A DNA stretch of 64,000 nucleotides, from positions 62,001 to 126,000 of the forward strand of contig JAUIJL010000010.1 of the NCBI GenBank assembly GCA_030431255.1, written 5' to 3'. A model generated the notes under the pieces. That model was not told the DNA's origin. It did not search any database and saw only the letters and a program-made list of their open reading frames with translations. Position 1 is the stretch's first letter, and each line of letters opens with the position of its first letter. Positions 50,876 through 57,606 of the stretch are shown here, piece by piece. The translations under genes and the position numbers were made by a program. Source of the DNA: Thermoanaerobaculia bacterium. Its GTDB lineage: Bacteria > Acidobacteriota > Thermoanaerobaculia > Multivoradales > J023.

Positions 50876-51562
50876 TCAGTCTCCATGGTGGTGGATATCC
50901 GAAAGGATGCTCAGCAATTGCTTCGCGTTGGGTAGAGAGCTTTCGCCGGTATCTCTCGCAAGCCGATCCAAGTCGACCAAGCTCTCCTTTCTGAGATACC
51001 GAATACACATGCCGACCGAGAGGACAAAAGCCTCTCGAATACCTCTACCTTCCGTGGCGATGGTTGAAAATATCTGCAGGTCGGCACCGATACGGTCACG
51101 GATCTTCCCGAGATCCACGGCCTCGGGAAGATCCTGTTTGTTGGCTTGAACCAGAATCGGGATCGGCCGATGTCGAGATTTGAGCTGGCGCCGAAGGGTG
51201 GTCAAACGCTCCAAGGAGCCCGCAAACCCTGTGGTGCTGGAATCGAGCACGAAAATCACAACGTCCGCGGCCGCGATAATCATGGATCTGCGCCGTGACA
51301 AAACCTTTTGCCCGGGCACGCTGAGCACTCGATAGTGGATCGGGCGATCCAAGAGACGGCCCCCTTCCAAATCCAACCAGTCGAAATAGAGCGTCCGCCC
51401 GTCTCGCTCCTCGAAGGTCTGAGCAGACCGGTCGAAGCAACGGGCCAACGCCCTCACCGACTCGGTTTTACCCGAACGGGGGATGCCGTCGTAAACCACA
51501 TGCAATACGAGATTGCCGGTTTCCGGGTGGAGCATTGCCATTTCAGCACGTTCTCGGATCAC
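50876..51562 (-). CDS. MglA-like small GTPase
   Basis: 228 residues from GTG 51562 (ATG 51541 is an alternative start). P-loop YDGIPRSGKTESVRAL, G3 motif SVPGQKVLSRRR (PGQ as in MglA-type GTPases), and G4 VQANKQDLPEAVD. No membrane anchor. MglA proteins switch between GTP and GDP states under control of roadblock-domain partners (MglB). A roadblock gene lies directly upstream in the same operon, so the pair is a likely GTPase/activator module feeding the downstream kinase and regulator. Length is slightly more than a minimal MglA. Confidence 0.88.
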   Translation of the reverse strand: MIRERAEMAMLHPETGNLVLHVVYDGIPRSGKTESVRALARCFDRSAQTFEERDGRTLYFDWLDLEGGRLLDRPIHYRVLSVPGQKVLSRRRSMIIAAADVVIFVLDSSTTGFAGSLERLTTLRRQLKSRHRPIPILVQANKQDLPEAVDLGKIRDRIGADLQIFSTIATEGRGIREAFVLSVGMCIRYLRKESLVDLDRLARDTGESSLPNAKQLLSILSDIHHHGD

Positions 51563-51657: not shown

Positions 51658-52020
51658 CTAAACCGTGAGCTCCTTGATCAGTCCGGCCAGCTTGTGGCGC
51701 GCAAGGGCGAGATTCGCCTTTTTCCGATCAAAGGCCATGTACAGAAAAAGGGTCGTGCCCGTCTGGGGAAAAATCAGATGATATTCCCGTCCCAAGGTAA
51801 TCAAAATGTCCTCGATCCGGTCGTCGAGATTCAGAGAGGTCATGACTTTTCGCTTGGATCGGACGACTTCGGAATTTCCGGCCGCGGCCACCTCGAGGTC
51901 GAAGCCGACGCGGCTGCCCGCCGTCCCCAAGCAGAGCCCACTTTCGTAGTCCGCCAAGGCCACCCCAATCGCGCCGTCTATTTCCATAGCCGCAGCCAAA
52001 GTTTCATTAAGATCACTCAT
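51658..52020 (-). CDS. Roadblock/LC7 (MglB-like) protein
   Basis: 120 residues. One roadblock domain: LNETLAAAMEIDGAIGVALA, DYESGLCLGTAGS, AAAGNSEVVRSKRKVM, REYHLIFPQTGTTLFLYMAF, KANLALARHKL. AAGGGAG precedes the ATG. It is the first gene of the operon (with the GTPase, kinase and NtrC-type regulator) and probably the GTPase's activating partner. Length fits a single-domain roadblock protein. Confidence 0.9.
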   Translation of the reverse strand: MSDLNETLAAAMEIDGAIGVALADYESGLCLGTAGSRVGFDLEVAAAGNSEVVRSKRKVMTSLNLDDRIEDILITLGREYHLIFPQTGTTLFLYMAFDRKKANLALARHKLAGLIKELTV

Positions 52021-52400: not shown

Positions 52401-53132
52401 GTGACTGATAGCAACGATTCCGCTGAGCAGACCGGCAGTCGAGACGCCTCGGCCAGGCCGATCTCACAGGTGATCCGCCGGCGCCTATTGCAAGCCGGCC
52501 GCCGCTTCCACGCCAACGACAGCATCGCCGACATGCTCCAGCCCGGCGAGAACGAGCTCCTGTTGGCCGAGGTCGCCGAGCAGTTGCAGAGCGTGTTGGA
52601 GTCGCTGGTGATCGATACCGAAAACGACCACAACACCCGCGAGACCGCCCAGCGTGTGGCCAAGATGTTCGTTAAGGAAGTCTTCCGCGGCCGCTATGAG
52701 CCGCCCCCCCCGGTGACCGAATTTCCGAATATCGCCAATCTCAACGAGCTGATGATCGTCGGTCCGGTAACGGTGCGCAGCGCCTGCTCCCACCACCTCT
52801 GCCCGATCATCGGAAAAGTGTGGGTAGGCGTGATGCCCAACGAGCACTCTGAGCTGATCGGGCTGTCCAAATATGCCCGTCTGGTGGAATGGGTCATGGC
52901 CCGACCACAAATTCAGGAAGAGGCGGTCATCCAGCTCGCGGACCTGCTGCAGGACAAGATGCGTCCGGACGGTCTCGCCATCGTCTTGCGCGCGGATCAC
53001 TACTGCATGCAATGGCGCGGGGTCAAAGACATGGATTCCAAAATGGTCAACAGCGTGATGCGCGGAAGCTTCTTGAAAAATCCCAACCTGCGACGGGAAT
53101 TCCTCTCGCTGCTCCACGACAAGACCCCGTGA
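52401..53132 (+). CDS. folE: GTP cyclohydrolase I
   Basis: 243 residues from GTG 52401. Converts GTP to dihydroneopterin triphosphate, first step of folate/pterin synthesis. Family features: VIDTENDHNTRETAQRVAKM, zinc-site VRSACSHHLCPIIGK, GVMPNEHSELIGLSKYARLV, MRPDGLAIVLRADHYCMQWRG and DSKMVNSVMRGSFL. All zinc ligands (Cys, His, later Cys) are in place. The N-terminal 45 residues are variable. The next gene (BLUF) starts 10 bases later, so they share an mRNA. Confidence 0.95.
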   Translation: MTDSNDSAEQTGSRDASARPISQVIRRRLLQAGRRFHANDSIADMLQPGENELLLAEVAEQLQSVLESLVIDTENDHNTRETAQRVAKMFVKEVFRGRYEPPPPVTEFPNIANLNELMIVGPVTVRSACSHHLCPIIGKVWVGVMPNEHSELIGLSKYARLVEWVMARPQIQEEAVIQLADLLQDKMRPDGLAIVLRADHYCMQWRGVKDMDSKMVNSVMRGSFLKNPNLRREFLSLLHDKTP

Positions 53133-53142
53133 GGAGAAGCCC

Positions 53143-53571
53143 ATGCTGATACGACTTCTTTACGCCAGCCGCGCCACCCAACCGATCGACGACAAGGTGA
53201 TCGGCGACATCCTGCAACTCTCGCGTAAAAACAATCCCGAAGCCGGCATCACCGGCGTGCTCTGCGTCTGCCAGGGCGGCGTGTACATGCAGGTCATTGA
53301 GGGGGGCCGGGAAAAGGTCAATGCCCTTTACGCCCGAATTCTCTCCGACCCGCGACACGAGGCGGTGACCATCCTCGCCTACGACGAGATCACCCAACGT
53401 CAATTCCCCAGCTGGAGCATGGGAAAGGTCGAGCTCGCCAAGGTCAACGCCGCCGTGGTGCTCAAATACTCCGAAACCCCCACCTTCGACCCGCTTTCCA
53501 TTTCCGGCGAAGCGGCCCTCCGCCTGCTCGAAGAGCTGATGGACGCCGCCGCCATCGTCGGCACGGGCTGA
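53143..53571 (+). CDS. BLUF-domain blue-light photoreceptor
   Basis: 142 residues; GAGGAG precedes the start. It is nearly a bare BLUF domain: LIRLLYASRAT (Tyr7), SRKNNPEAGITGVL (Asn31), VYMQVIEGGREKV (Gln50), ARILSDPRHEAV and RQFPSWSMGK. The Tyr and Gln that make up the flavin photoswitch, plus the Asn, keep the AppA spacing within one residue. Residues about 95-142 form the usual capping helices. No output domain, so it must act through a partner. It is co-transcribed with folE. Confidence 0.93.
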   Translation: MLIRLLYASRATQPIDDKVIGDILQLSRKNNPEAGITGVLCVCQGGVYMQVIEGGREKVNALYARILSDPRHEAVTILAYDEITQRQFPSWSMGKVELAKVNAAVVLKYSETPTFDPLSISGEAALRLLEELMDAAAIVGTG

Positions 53572-53609
53572 GGCCGCAGCGTCGACCGGCCCACGACACG
53601 AAAACCAGC

Positions 53610-53708
53610 GTAGGGTCGGGGCTTGCCCCCGACCGACGGAAACGACGTAGGGTCGGGGCTTGCCCCCGACCGACGGAAACGACGTAGGGTCGGGGCTTGC
53701 CCCCGACC
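53610..53708. repeat. Tandem intergenic repeat, 37-bp period x3
   Basis: Three copies of a 25-base unit starting GTAGGGTCGGGGC and ending GCCCCCGACC at 53610, 53647 and 53684, separated by GACGGAAACGAC. Each copy is itself a hairpin (GGTCGGGGC / GCCCCCGACC). Lies downstream of the BLUF gene. Confidence 0.92.
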
Positions 53709-53729
53709 GCCCTGAAATCCCGAATGGCC

Positions 53730-53800: not shown

Positions 53801-54667
53801 TCAGGGTCGGGGAAAGGTCAGCGCGGTGAAGTAGGTCCGCCAATCGAGATCCGGCTCGTTGGCGGATCGACCTGCCTCCGACATCGGCTCAGCCAGGACC
53901 GCGGTGGCGACCCACACTTTCGCCTCCCCGGACGGAGCCGCGAGCTCCACCCGGCCATCGGCATCGGTCCGTGCGGACTGGATGGGCGTCTCGGGTCCGG
54001 GTCTCAGGGGATGCAGGTCCACCAAGACGTCGCCCTGGGGTCGGCCCCCTCTCAAGGCTTGAAGGATCACACGATCAGAATCAGCGGCTTCGAGCACCAG
54101 CTCGACGTCGAATCCCTGGGCACGATCAATCACCGGCCCGGGACCCACCACGAGCAAGGCCTTCAAGGTTCGACTGTAGAGCTCGCGACCCTGGGTGTCG
54201 CTCCGACCTGATCGACGGCGTTGGTCGAGCACGTGGTCGAGACCCTCGAGCTCGAGATGACGACGGAAGACGTCCGCGTCGGTGATGTGGGGCGCGGTCC
54301 GACTCTGATACACGATGGTCCATGAGCCCGCCGTGCCCGGTCTGACCAGACCGGCGGGATCACCGCCGTGCAAACCCGGCAGCTCCGTTTCCGCCGCCGC
54401 CGGGTCGATGGCGTAAAGCCGCTGCAGACGACGATCGTTTCGTGCCAGCGGCTCGGACTGCCCGCCGTGACCTTGAAAGAGGCGAGCCTTCACCACCTCA
54501 TTGGGCGCAACACCGGCGGGAATGCCCAACCACACATCGTGGGCCGACACCGGTCCGGTGACAAGCGTCGCGGCGAGCATGAAAAAAGAGACCGCCACCC
54601 AAGAGCGACGGTCTCTGGTCGAGGATTCGGCCCCCGCCTGATGCTTCAAACATCTCATGGAATCCAT
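53801..54667 (-). CDS. DUF4198-family periplasmic protein
   Basis: 288 residues. A signal peptide (FFMLAATLVTGPVSA) is followed directly by HDVWLGIPAGVAPNEVV, a His-first mature end typical of DUF4198 proteins implicated in metal handling. Further segments: VYQSRTAPHITDADVF, GVRPQG-like and a final Ig-like carboxypeptidase-regulatory fold (GDVLVDLHPLRPGPETP, TDADGRVELAAPSGEAKVWV). It lies 9 bases after the DUF4331 gene and shares its promoter. Function unproven; metal binding is inferred. Confidence 0.82.
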   Translation of the reverse strand: MDSMRCLKHQAGAESSTRDRRSWVAVSFFMLAATLVTGPVSAHDVWLGIPAGVAPNEVVKARLFQGHGGQSEPLARNDRRLQRLYAIDPAAAETELPGLHGGDPAGLVRPGTAGSWTIVYQSRTAPHITDADVFRRHLELEGLDHVLDQRRRSGRSDTQGRELYSRTLKALLVVGPGPVIDRAQGFDVELVLEAADSDRVILQALRGGRPQGDVLVDLHPLRPGPETPIQSARTDADGRVELAAPSGEAKVWVATAVLAEPMSEAGRSANEPDLDWRTYFTALTFPRP

Positions 54668-54676
54668 CCGCTCGTA

Positions 54677-56137
54677 TCAGTCGCGGGTTCCCGACAGCGG
54701 GGTGTTCAGGTAGGGAAATGCATTCATGAACTGACCGGCGTGTTGCAACACCCCGTCGGTATACGGCAGCTGGCCGTTGGGGGCGACCTCTTCGGGCAGC
54801 AGCACACCCATCGCCGCCCGCAGGGCGATGTCGACCACATCGTCACCGGGCCGACGACCGTTGGGAAAACCCGCCAAATCGCCGCCGAGCACCCCGAGGG
54901 AGTCCTGCTCTGCCGCCGGGGTGACGTCGATACCGGTGTTGAGCCGCATGACCTCCGCCGTGGAGCCGTCCTCGTTGAGACCGGGCACACCGGTGAGGAA
55001 GACCTGGATCAAATCCTCGCGGGGGAAAAGATTCGGCGCGGTGACCCCGAAGAGAATCTCCAACAGCTCGGGCAGGGACGGATGGGTGACATAGCGCAGG
55101 AATTGGCCGTCGTCCTTGGGCTGCGACGCGTTGAAACGGTCTTTGTCGGGCAGGCCGATGACCACTTCGTTCACCAACGGATTGGCCAATCGGGAGACCT
55201 GCACGTAATCACCGCCGAGCTGAGCCGGCCGGCCATACTCCACCTCACCGCCGAGGGTCCTCACCCGACGCAGCTTGGCCGTGGTCCAGCCACCGATCAC
55301 CGGTCCGCTGTCGGTCAGGCAATCGATGGGCACCTCCAGCGCCAAGGTGCTGATGTTGAAGTTCTCGATATCGTTGGTCTCGCCGTTCGGGTCGCCCACC
55401 GGGTTCAGGTTGACCAAGTCGAAGACCCTACCGAGGTTGACCGCGAATCCCTCTTTGCGAGGTCCGACGAACATCCGTGAGTTGCCGCAACCCGGAATAT
55501 TGATGTCGTGGATGTAGTGATTGGCGTAGGACTCGTAATTGGCGAAGGTCTTGTCGCCGATGTAATCCAAGGGTGAGCCGAAGAGCCCGCCACCGGTGCG
55601 GGGATTGACGATATTGATCTTCTCCGTGGGATTGTCCACCGGGCCACGGATCAGCTGGAGACGGAAAAGACGTCGCTCGTTGACGTTGGCGGTGCCGAAC
55701 TCACCGCCCACCGGTCCGATATTGACCAGCGGCACGGGAACGGTTTCCGTATTGCCGTCCTCGCCCACCTGCAAGGCCACCTGGGGGCTGACCCGCACCA
55801 TGAGGAAGCGGAAGGTCAAATCCTCCACGCCGTCGCCGTCGTTGGTGATGTGGATGTCGTAAGCCGCGTCAGGGTCGAGGGAGAAATAATTCGGGCCGCC
55901 GTAGGGCGCTTGCAGGGGATTGTAGTTGGCGATCAGGGTGACGAAATCTTGGCGACCCGGCTCATAGCTCCTGAAGGCGTAAAAGTCCGTGCCGTCCACT
56001 TGCGGGCTCGAGATGATCGCCGGTGCTTCGCGATGGCTGGAGGCCTGTGAGACCAACGGCCAAAGCAAGGCTGAGAGGCAGATCAACGCAACGACTTTGA
56101 AACGGGGGGTTCTTTCAAACGGAGTTCTTTCAGGCAT
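54677..56137 (-). CDS. DUF4331-family exported protein
   Basis: 486 residues from ATG 56137, which has AGGAG in the right place; an upstream ATG ten codons earlier lacks one. Signal peptide FKVVALICLSALLWPLVSQA, mature start SSHREAP. DUF4331 landmarks: REAPAIISSPQVDGTDFYAF, PLQAPYGGPNYFSLDPDAAY, DIHITNDGDGVEDLTFRF, VGDPNGETNDIENFNIST and VIGLPDKDRFNASQPKDDG. Family function is not known. A candidate ECF promoter lies ~65 bases upstream and a 16-bp tandem repeat above it. First gene of an operon with DUF4198. Confidence 0.87.
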   Translation of the reverse strand: MPERTPFERTPRFKVVALICLSALLWPLVSQASSHREAPAIISSPQVDGTDFYAFRSYEPGRQDFVTLIANYNPLQAPYGGPNYFSLDPDAAYDIHITNDGDGVEDLTFRFLMVRVSPQVALQVGEDGNTETVPVPLVNIGPVGGEFGTANVNERRLFRLQLIRGPVDNPTEKINIVNPRTGGGLFGSPLDYIGDKTFANYESYANHYIHDINIPGCGNSRMFVGPRKEGFAVNLGRVFDLVNLNPVGDPNGETNDIENFNISTLALEVPIDCLTDSGPVIGGWTTAKLRRVRTLGGEVEYGRPAQLGGDYVQVSRLANPLVNEVVIGLPDKDRFNASQPKDDGQFLRYVTHPSLPELLEILFGVTAPNLFPREDLIQVFLTGVPGLNEDGSTAEVMRLNTGIDVTPAAEQDSLGVLGGDLAGFPNGRRPGDDVVDIALRAAMGVLLPEEVAPNGQLPYTDGVLQHAGQFMNAFPYLNTPLSGTRD

Positions 56138-56209
56138 GTCGGCTCCTGGAGGAAAATTCGTGACCAAGGAGTTGGGGGCAAGCTCCTCGATCAGGTTGTT
56201 TCCCCTGCC

Positions 56210-56236
56210 TACGGCATGGACCGACCCTTTAGATGA
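56210..56236 (-). promoter_or_regulatory. Candidate ECF promoter of the DUF4331 operon
   Basis: - strand TCATCT, exactly 17 bases, CGTAGG. Identical in layout to the promoter before the ECF sigma gene (TCATCC-N17-CGTAGG). The -35 side is the last copy of the tandem repeat. Confidence 0.6.
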
Positions 56237-56306
56237 AAAAATCTTGGGATGAAAAAACTTTGGGATGAAAAAATCTTGGGATGAAAAAATCTTGAGATGA
56301 AAAAAC
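56232..56306. repeat. 16-bp tandem repeat x5
   Basis: Copies of GATGAAAAAATCTTGG start at 56232, 56248, 56264, 56280 and 56296. On the - strand each gives a T-run followed by CATC, matching the -35 side of the candidate ECF promoter. Confidence 0.95.
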
Positions 56307-56367
56307 TCGCGCTCGATGTGCCGCGTCTTCCTCTATCTCGAAACCGCTGAAATGGGACGGAGCTTCG

Positions 56368-57006
56368 TTAGGAAGAAAACTCCAAGCCGCCTCGGATGAG
56401 GGTAAGGGCCACGCAAAGCGGCCCCGTATCCATCAGCGGAGCATGCGCCGAGCCGGCGGGGTACTGACGGTAGTCCCCGACCCCCATATGCCCGAAATCA
56501 TCGGTCAGGCCACCCTGCAACACCACCAAATCCTCGGTTCCTAGATGGCGATGATGGGGGAAGACCGAGGCACCGGGGGTTTTGATCACGAAACACACAT
56601 AGTCTTGCACCGGGTCCGCGGCCACCCGGGCCACCCGGGCCGGACCGATTTCCTCCCAGCTCAAAGGCTCGCTCACGTTGAGCTCGTCGCGACAAACCTG
56701 GGGCACGGGAAGCCCGGCGAACGGATCGAGCCCGGCGTCGAGATCCGGCAGCGCGGCTTGCAACTTGTGCCAGAAGTCGCCCGACACCTCGGCGGAGCCT
56801 GACGCCAGGGCATCGGGCTTGAAAGATCGCAACATCTCACCCGCCGGGGCCGACAGCGAGGCCAGCTTTTCACGGCAGGACCGACATTTGTCGAGATGGG
56901 CTTCCAGCAGCGCTCGCTCGGCAGGAAAAAGCTCACCCGCCACCAGATCCTCCAGGGAGGCTTCCGGTGGATGCTCGAGGGGCAGGCGATCACTCATCTT
57001 GCTCAT
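56368..57006 (-). CDS. ChrR-type zinc anti-sigma factor with cupin domain
   Basis: 212 residues, overlapping the sigma gene's stop. N-terminal anti-sigma domain: LEHPPEA (H12), LLEAHLDKCRSCREKL (H37, C41, C44). The spacing 25/4/3 is the same as the zinc ligands H6, H31, C35, C38 of Rhodobacter ChrR. The C-terminal cupin has FPHHRHLGTEDLV (H152, H154, E158) and PAGSAHAP (H188), again exactly the ChrR spacing 2/4/30. So both metal sites are intact. ChrR holds its sigma factor until singlet oxygen or related stress releases it. An ATG three codons on is an alternative start. Confidence 0.93.
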   Translation of the reverse strand: MSKMSDRLPLEHPPEASLEDLVAGELFPAERALLEAHLDKCRSCREKLASLSAPAGEMLRSFKPDALASGSAEVSGDFWHKLQAALPDLDAGLDPFAGLPVPQVCRDELNVSEPLSWEEIGPARVARVAADPVQDYVCFVIKTPGASVFPHHRHLGTEDLVVLQGGLTDDFGHMGVGDYRQYPAGSAHAPLMDTGPLCVALTLIRGGLEFSS

Positions 57007-57553
57007 AGCTCTTCATCTTCTTGGCCAGCTTCTTCAAACCGAGGCGAATACGAGATTTCAAAGTGCCGAGGGGTAGGGCTAACCGCTCTGCGGCCTCCTC
57101 GTGGGTCAGGCCACCGAAAAACGCCAACAGCAGCGCTTTTCTCTCCCCTTCCTTGAGATGACCGAGGGCTTGACGCAGGTCCAAGCTCAGCTCTCTGCGG
57201 TCCAACACGACAGGCGCCGGAGATTCGGGTAAATCGTTCTCGGAAACGTCACCGGCTCTGGATCGACGCAGAAAATCGATCCATCGATTGCGACAAATAA
57301 TGTATAACCAACCCCCCACATCGCCACGGGAAGGATCGTAGCTGGAAGCGCGTCGCCACACGGCGATGAATACTTCCTGCAGCACGTCCTCTGCGATTTG
57401 GTCGTTGCGCGCCAAATGCCTGAGCACGGCCAGCAGCTGTGATGACCACCGCAGATAGAAACGATGGAAGGCCTCTCCATCTCTGGTCGCAATGGCCCTT
57501 AGGAGCATCACGTCAGAGATCTCGGCGGGAATCCTCTGGGAGCTGTTGCTCAT
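56990..57553 (-). CDS. ECF sigma factor paired with the ChrR-type anti-sigma
   Basis: 187 residues from ATG 57553; a GTG at 57571 is possible and the frame is open further. Sigma region 2: FYLRWSSQLLAVLRHLARND, AEDVLQEVFIAVWRRASSYD, VGGWLYIICRNRWIDFLRRS. Region 4: LKEGERKALLLAFFGGLTHE, EAAERLALPLGTLKSRIRLG. No other domain. Pairing with ChrR places it near the ECF group controlling photo-oxidative stress (R. sphaeroides RpoE). A candidate promoter of its own type sits just upstream, so autoregulation is expected. The start is uncertain because no ribosome site is well spaced. Confidence 0.92.
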   Translation of the reverse strand: MSNSSQRIPAEISDVMLLRAIATRDGEAFHRFYLRWSSQLLAVLRHLARNDQIAEDVLQEVFIAVWRRASSYDPSRGDVGGWLYIICRNRWIDFLRRSRAGDVSENDLPESPAPVVLDRRELSLDLRQALGHLKEGERKALLLAFFGGLTHEEAAERLALPLGTLKSRIRLGLKKLAKKMKSYEQDE

Positions 57554-57579
57554 CGAAGTCGAGAATAACACTCCCTCCC

Positions 57580-57606
57580 TACGGCGACGAGCCCGCCCCT
57601 GGATGA
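57580..57606 (-). promoter_or_regulatory. Candidate autoregulated promoter of the ECF sigma gene
   Basis: - strand TCATCC, 17 bases, CGTAGG. It lies between the ADOP gene's end and the sigma gene. Expected transcription start is about 57573, so the leader would be very short. Confidence 0.6.

Follow-up and report, generated by a model that had tools for sequence, protein, structure and literature searches.

Can two nearly identical promoter-like sites, one ahead of an ECF sigma factor gene and the other ahead of a gene for an exported protein of the DUF4331 family, be taken as the mark of a single regulon, and if so, what might that regulon be for? The question is raised by a 64,000-nt stretch of DNA (the window, meaning the whole stretch that was analysed) in which four genes follow one another on the - strand in the order sigma factor, ChrR-like anti-sigma factor, DUF4331 protein and DUF4198-like protein. 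A first-pass annotation had read the two sites as a sigma factor controlling itself and one target operon, and had given that operon a role in a ChrR-type, possibly singlet-oxygen, response.

The two - strand sites, given there as TCATC[C/T], 17 bases and CGTAGG, are present as described, and they are the only exact matches to TCATCY-N17-CGTAGG in the window (0.01 expected; none of 100 shuffles contained two). With two mismatches allowed, the window holds seven matches against 8.1 expected, which is chance level. The ECF-type promoter of the sigma-chrR operon, TCATCCAGGGGCGGGCTCGTCGCCGTAGG at 57578-57606 (- strand), consists of the -35 box TCATCC, a 17-bp spacer and the -10 box CGTAGG, which ends 25 positions from the sigma ATG at 57553. 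Its counterpart ahead of DUF4331 and the DUF4198-like gene, TCATCTAAAGGGTCGGTCCATGCCGTAGG at 56208-56236 (- strand), has the -35 box TCATCT, the same 17-bp spacer and the same -10 box CGTAGG, here 71 positions from the DUF4331 ATG at 56137. Both sites lie at a promoter-like position ahead of a gene.

Upstream of DUF4331 there is also a 16-bp tandem array of 4.6 copies (56232-56305, - strand), in which five copies of TTTTTTCATC stand one behind another. The final copy serves as the -35 of the DUF4331 promoter, and it is the only one of the five with a -10 at the right distance. A 26-base piece of the array has no other match in the genome at up to three mismatches. The array with its five TTTTTTCATC boxes may be a slippage product or a set of stacked sigma docking sites.

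Boxes of such low information invite the objection that the match is a coincidence or an artefact of local duplication. It can draw on the tandem array, which contains TTTCATC and abuts the DUF4331 promoter, and on genome-wide counts that equal the reversed control: the exact motif has three matches in the 10.19-Mb genome and its reversed control three, and the relaxed form TCATCYN{16,17}CGTAG has 12 and 10, respectively. Five of the 12 relaxed matches lie ahead of a gene, compared with 1 of 10 reversed controls. In this count the crude gene picker placed the sigma site in a start-extended frame, a call that we set aside by hand, and the site at L150 shares 8 bases with a frame of that kind. 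Leaving out the two window sites already known gives 3 of 10 and 1 of 10, which is not significant alone. As a check on its own proposal, the first-pass annotation had asked whether the motif occurs at random genomic positions as often as upstream of genes; in this one genome the answer is borderline. Since the motif is no commoner across the genome than chance, it is not specific by itself; we rejected genome-wide counting as proof of a regulon, and the case rests on conservation. The motif is conserved in other genera and phyla, where reversed and shuffled controls are low, and a chance origin is for that reason very improbable.

Conservation was first sought close to home, in 59 genomes, the organism's own plus genomes from the same genus, family and order, with DUF4331 matched in 22 and ChrR in 14; genes in the relatives were called with a crude ORF picker. 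Of 12 sigma-ChrR genes in the relatives, 9 are preceded by TCATCY-N16/17-CGTA (reversed 0 of 12, shuffle mean 0.008); the set omits the organism's own locus and G019, where the contig is cut. Two of the three misses lie inside a DUF4331-DUF4198-sigma-chrR run (G004, G005) and the third reads CCATCC. Likewise, the motif precedes 8 of 15 close DUF4331 genes (reversed 0, shuffle mean 0.014), while the other seven are without an exact match, that of G004 having a one-mismatch copy, read by eye. G004 and G005 belong to the same family as the organism studied and carry DUF4331, DUF4198, sigma and chrR in that order on one strand. The recurrence of these features in relatives (motif at 9 of 12 and 8 of 15 loci) supports, at the level of sequence, the proposal of a self-controlling sigma factor with DUF4331 and the DUF4198-like gene as its direct target.

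The proteins encoded by the first two genes agree with this arrangement. For the sigma factor gene (56990-57553, - strand, 187 aa; Pfam Sigma70_r2 and r4_2) the start at ATG 57553 was chosen because the start in the ORF list, 57643, lies upstream of the promoter. Its closest solved relatives in a PDB search are R. sphaeroides SigE (2q1z, E=7e-26, 94 bits) and SigK (4nqw, E=1e-22, 83 bits); SigK is also its best NCBIfam match, at 118.9 bits, under the cut-off of 226. The anti-sigma gene (56368-57006, - strand, 212 aa) shares 17 bp with the sigma gene. Pfam finds Cupin_7 (43.4 bits) and zf-HC2 (23.8 bits) in its product and no RskA_C domain; the protein matches ChrR 2z2s with E=9e-15 and anti_sig_ChrR (TIGR02451) with 72.9 bits, under the 124.5 cut-off. 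The zinc ligands of ChrR are given in the available part of PMC6852236 as His6, His31, Cys35 and Cys38 together with His141, His143, Glu147 and His177, the cupin Glu and His being needed for the 1O2 response. Aligned to 2z2s and relatives, the window protein has counterparts of all eight, namely the His, His, Cys and Cys of the zinc-binding anti-sigma domain and the His, His, Glu and His of the cupin-like domain. The zf-HC2 and Cupin_7 domains and the eight retained ligands bear out the annotation's reading of an ECF sigma factor in a ChrR-type system.

The pair can be compared with known systems. As in the RpoE(SigE)-ChrR system of R. sphaeroides (ECF11), sigma and anti-sigma factor share one operon, and the anti-sigma factor joins a zinc anti-sigma domain to a zinc cupin with all eight ligands kept. 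As with the RpoE-ChrR homologue of P. syringae, the promoter is of the autoregulatory kind; the ChIP-seq consensus of that sigma factor is TGATCC-N16-CGTA in the accessible text of PMC5507510, and of its ATCC-N16-CGTA core the window keeps ATCY and CGTA. The window differs from RpoE-ChrR in its -35 box (TCATCY, not TGATCC, with a different first pair of bases), in a spacer of 17 rather than 16 and in its target, which is DUF4331 plus the DUF4198-like gene. Unlike in SigK-RskA systems (ECF18/ECF19 types), the anti-sigma factor here is of the ChrR/cupin type.

Does the association of DUF4331 with ECF sigma factors extend beyond the order? A search with 13 aligned DUF4331 proteins yielded at least 541 loci, of which the best 80 were taken, from Proteobacteria, Planctomycetota, Verrucomicrobiota, Cyanobacteria, Melainabacteria, Myxococcota and Acidobacteriota; the 80 are not independent, many being from Marinobacter and three (L069, L072, L108) lying on the same contigs as L034, L035 and L041. 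Within these best 80 of at least 541 loci, an ECF gene lies no more than 2.5 kb from DUF4331 in 46 (39 of the 63 with enough flank), divergently in 34 of the 46, and ECF genes are 13 times as dense beside DUF4331 as in the outer flanks (47 genes in 373 kb vs 7 in 725 kb).

When all 4+4 dyads upstream of DUF4331 were counted in the same 80 loci with no motif given, ATCC-N16-CGTA came out on top, at 30 of 80. Sequence reversal mirrors the same pairs and was therefore useless as a control for whole-dyad counting; in its place, specific patterns were counted on sequence that had been reversed or shuffled. Among the best 80, ATCY-N16/17-CGTW precedes DUF4331 at 55 of 73 loci (the 80 minus four dropouts from the N-terminus count described below and three with short upstream sequence), against a shuffle mean of 1.7, a shuffle maximum of 7 and 2 on reversed sequence. 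The pattern is found at 41 of 45 loci with an ECF gene nearby and at 14 of the 28 where none was found, a class that includes loci with short flanks. The 34 divergent pairs have both promoters in 24 cases, that of DUF4331 only in 7, that of sigma only in 2 and neither in 1; the figure of 24 of 34 has no control of its own, the nearest being 26 of 73 on the reverse strand, with a shuffle mean of 1.7 for the forward one. Across these loci the -35 differs in its first bases (GCATC, GAATC, TCATC, TGATC, AAATC), and the core matches the P. syringae consensus of PMC5507510, as far as that paper is available, so that we count it in favour of ECF control.

The anti-sigma factors at these loci are of several types. 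Ten chosen proteins divide by Pfam into eight with Cupin_7 and two with RskA_C; the anti-sigma of L104 also has Cupin_7, and RskA_C follows the sigma gene in L038 and L047. Many cupin-type anti-sigmas are without the HxxxCxxC zinc motif. In a tree of 59 sigma rows the window protein belongs to a ChrR clade of 12 rows (100/99), separate from the RskA groups and from those with other cupins; the deep forks of this tree are weak, and the short sigma of L103 was left out of it. Twelve of the anti-sigmas on the tree, of our own choice, were checked against Pfam and the other labels are rule-based; the rule label 'other' was wrong for L110 and L120, where Pfam gives Cupin_7. In Marinobacter algicola DG893 (L118), DUF4331 lies near a sigma gene whose partner is RskA-type by rule.

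Such variety raises the thought that some other ECF sigma factor might read the DUF4331 promoter in the window, the matching sites then reflecting a specificity common to related ECFs. A candidate exists, as contig C49 of the organism's own genome carries a further ECF/RskA pair. Other genomes place sigma/RskA pairs that share the motif type beside DUF4331, a likeness to SigK-RskA; G015 even has a sigma-RskA pair beside DUF4331 and a sigma-ChrR pair beside the gene discussed next as a third target. Yet the C49 sigma gene is without a matching motif upstream, whereas the window sigma gene has one and is adjacent, and the single run of DUF4331, DUF4198, sigma and chrR in G004 and G005 likewise argues for the local sigma factor. 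We judge control by another ECF to be unlikely.

The reach of the local sigma factor is probably wider than the two operons of the window. One genome match (G000:C27:91334-91361) directly precedes the gene of an exported 451-aa protein that has no Pfam match, and in G007 and G015 the genes of homologues of this protein (56% and 46% identical) are divergent from sigma-chrR and carry a motif of their own; at the remaining fetched sigma-chrR loci no homologue was seen. By this sequence evidence the 451-aa protein is likely to be a third target of the sigma factor. The annotation's 'one target operon' can accordingly be kept as regards the DUF4331 operon being a target, while 'one' is probably an undercount, given the motif before the 451-aa protein gene here and the divergent homologues in two genomes. 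In these two genomes the promoters of sigma-chrR and of the divergent third-target gene have their -35 boxes back to back, 7 bases apart at L174:2423-2431 and 2 bases apart at L175:5263-5266.

Two other matches were considered as further targets and set aside as unproven. The third exact genome match, G000:C31:39907-39935 (L003, L173), lies between divergent genes, and the 322-aa protein downstream belongs to no clear family. The other (L151/L172) precedes a 229-aa exported protein with no family and no relative among the fetched loci.

What, then, would the regulon produce? The DUF4331 gene (54677-56137, - strand, 486 aa) matches PF14224 (450 bits, cut-off 27, profile positions 1-421 of 421) and is the sole match in the genome, and its product has a signal peptide followed by a predicted mature start of Ser-Ser-His-Arg-Glu-Ala-Pro. 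A mature chain starting Xaa-Xaa-His constitutes the ATCUN copper/nickel motif; a literature search for ATCUN gave nothing relevant among the matches listed. Across the best 80 of at least 541 loci, SSH is found at 74 of 76 N-termini and Ala at -1 in 70 of 76, with the proviso that the pattern used, [SN]HR[ED]AP, already required S or N before His and that cleavage sites were read by eye, from the conserved Ala before SSH. Four of the 80 dropped out of this count (L101 with SSHGEAP, L138 with SSHSEAP, L146 with SSHREGP, and L141, unread). These N-termini suggest that DUF4331 may bind metal through its predicted Ser-Ser-His start.

The neighbours of DUF4331 point the same way. The second gene of the operon (53801-54667, - strand, 288 aa) is called DUF4198-like because its PF10670 score of 27 bits (profile positions 1-197 of 209) is under the 34-bit gathering cut-off; by tblastn its exported product matches, at E=1e-11, a protein of L047 that scores 65 bits for PF10670, and VSA precedes a predicted mature start of His-Asp-Val-Trp (HDVW). 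DUF4198 follows DUF4331 in 16 of the best 80 of at least 541 loci, with HxxW after the signal peptide in 16 of 16 and Ala before HxxW in 15. A protein whose His-first start resembles that of HupE/UreJ-2 is encoded within 4.2 kb downstream of DUF4331 in 32 of these 80, by pattern; Pfam identifies HupE_UreJ_2 in all three that were checked (L070, L111, L127), and in each case a TPR-protein gene comes before it.

Members of both partner families have been described as metal binders: according to the available text of PMC12537917, a DUF4198 structure binds nickel through its N-terminal His, and extracytoplasmic HupE/UreJ-2 domains bind copper in the same way. Like the 'anglerase' N-terminal-histidine metalloproteins of that paper, the neighbours of DUF4331 belong to the DUF4198 and HupE/UreJ-2 families and have a predicted mature N-terminal His, whereas the predicted His of DUF4331 itself is third, not first. 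The main text of PMC12537917, as available, contains no occurrence of DUF4331, and ECF control does not come up in the available part.

Structure gave no independent guide. The AlphaFold model of DUF4331 has a mean pLDDT of 88.5 (the first ten residues average 64), and its fold has no significant match in the PDB (best Foldseek E 0.0046, TM 0.07); by VIA the best Z is 5.7, the matches being mostly antibody sandwiches, with 2ivf at Z 5.2 and 1i82 at Z 5.0, and the best E of the DUF4331 profile against PDB sequences is 0.33. We draw no function from the fold for this reason, and a missing match excludes nothing.

Taken together, these observations probably describe an ECF regulon in which a ChrR-held sigma factor drives both operons and probably another gene, and whose exported products handle nickel or copper. 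A cytoplasmic ChrR-like zinc/cupin anti-sigma factor would hold the sigma factor until a signal, either an oxidant or a metal acting on the cupin, frees it. The freed sigma factor would transcribe its own operon from 57578-57606 and the DUF4331/DUF4198-like operon from 56208-56236, both promoters being of the type ATCY-N16/17-CGTW, and probably at least one other exported-protein gene elsewhere in the genome. Outside the cytoplasm, the exported products would bind nickel or copper or deliver it; the DUF4198-like protein would use its N-terminal His, as published for a DUF4198 protein in the available part of PMC12537917, and DUF4331 its predicted Ser-Ser-His start. Gene order, the motif and its conservation, the ECF linkage, the zinc ligands of the anti-sigma factor and the conserved N-termini are the sequence-based part of this explanation; that the sigma factor reads these promoters, which signal it answers and that DUF4331 binds metal are steps that we infer. 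Conservation makes the regulatory part well supported, and the metal part draws on the partners and the N-termini.

The same genes can be read as a plain ChrR-type photo-oxidative response to singlet oxygen or organic peroxide, in which DUF4331 and its DUF4198-like partner mend or protect the cell envelope and metals have no special part. The retention in the window protein of the ligands listed in the available text of PMC6852236, including the cupin Glu and His for 1O2, suits such a response, as does a BLUF blue-light sensor gene next door. It fits less well that the DUF4331 promoter type and its ECF linkage are kept alongside anti-sigma factors of the RskA type and cupins that lack the zinc site of ChrR, and that the partners elsewhere come from families with published metal binders (PMC12537917, in its available part). 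The ChrR-type role assigned by the annotation has its footing in the zinc ligands, and its singlet-oxygen part is weakly supported. We regard the photo-oxidative account as rather unlikely, and singlet oxygen as a possible but not a favoured label, since the same output is wired to other sensor types. Extracytoplasmic metal handling under ECF control appears to be the better reading, with metal handling as the presumed function.

DUF4331 is an exported family that is widespread and has no assigned function in Pfam. The regulon read in this way would give it a testable role, that of a conserved target of ECF control next to families that include nickel and copper binders; a literature search in which supplementary files and most subscription journals were outside coverage found no mention of DUF4331, nor of PF14224 among the papers listed. 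The findings point to one promoter-and-output module that works with three anti-sigma types, so that counterparts of the system in culturable bacteria such as Marinobacter could be used to find the signal. More speculatively, and with rather less confidence than we place in the local regulon, DUF4331 proteins may be exported Cu/Ni binders (mature Ser-Ser-His) and the central products of an ECF regulon that spans phyla. Such a regulon would be a so far unrecognised response to metal stress outside the cytoplasm, in which the promoter ATCY-N16/17-CGTW and the output are conserved, the sensor is swapped (ChrR, zinc-site-less cupins, RskA), and the partner is, by phylum, DUF4198 or TPR plus a His-first HupE/UreJ-2 protein.

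Some further features of the locus deserve mention. A strong terminator-like hairpin with a 13-bp stem and a T run (54587-54616, - strand; -22.8 kcal/mol, z = -3.5) occupies the opening codons of the DUF4198-like frame; it may lower transcription of that gene and is a possible attenuator. The genes of the BLUF sensor (53143-53571) and of a GTP cyclohydrolase I (52401-53132) are convergent with the DUF4198-like gene, and a 37-bp direct repeat of 2.7 identical copies occupies 53609-53709, between BLUF and the DUF4198-like gene. Farther along are genes for a small Arf-like GTPase (50876-51562, PF00025) and for a weakly LAMTOR5-like protein (51658-52020, under cut-off), which we take to resemble GTPase/roadblock pairs. 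MacB-FtsX-type permease and PadR genes lie upstream.

Among the order-level relatives there are also distant DUF4331 paralogues (37-44% identity), only two of eight of which are preceded by the ECF motif. A sigma-54-like promoter (TGGCAC-N5-TTGC type, which is the sigma-54 promoter consensus type) precedes 7 of the 8 and none of the 15 close orthologues (reversed 0), by a pattern set after the sequences were seen; the sites are upstream of L043:4925, L048:6628, L049:3011, L050:6271, L051:5555, L052:5701 and L030:1324. Most of these paralogues also carry repeated TCTCA/TGAGA words, and they are possibly a second, separately regulated DUF4331 subfamily. At L043:4571-9341, two DUF4331 genes flank a TPR protein gene, with sigma-54-like and ECF-like promoters upstream of the first.
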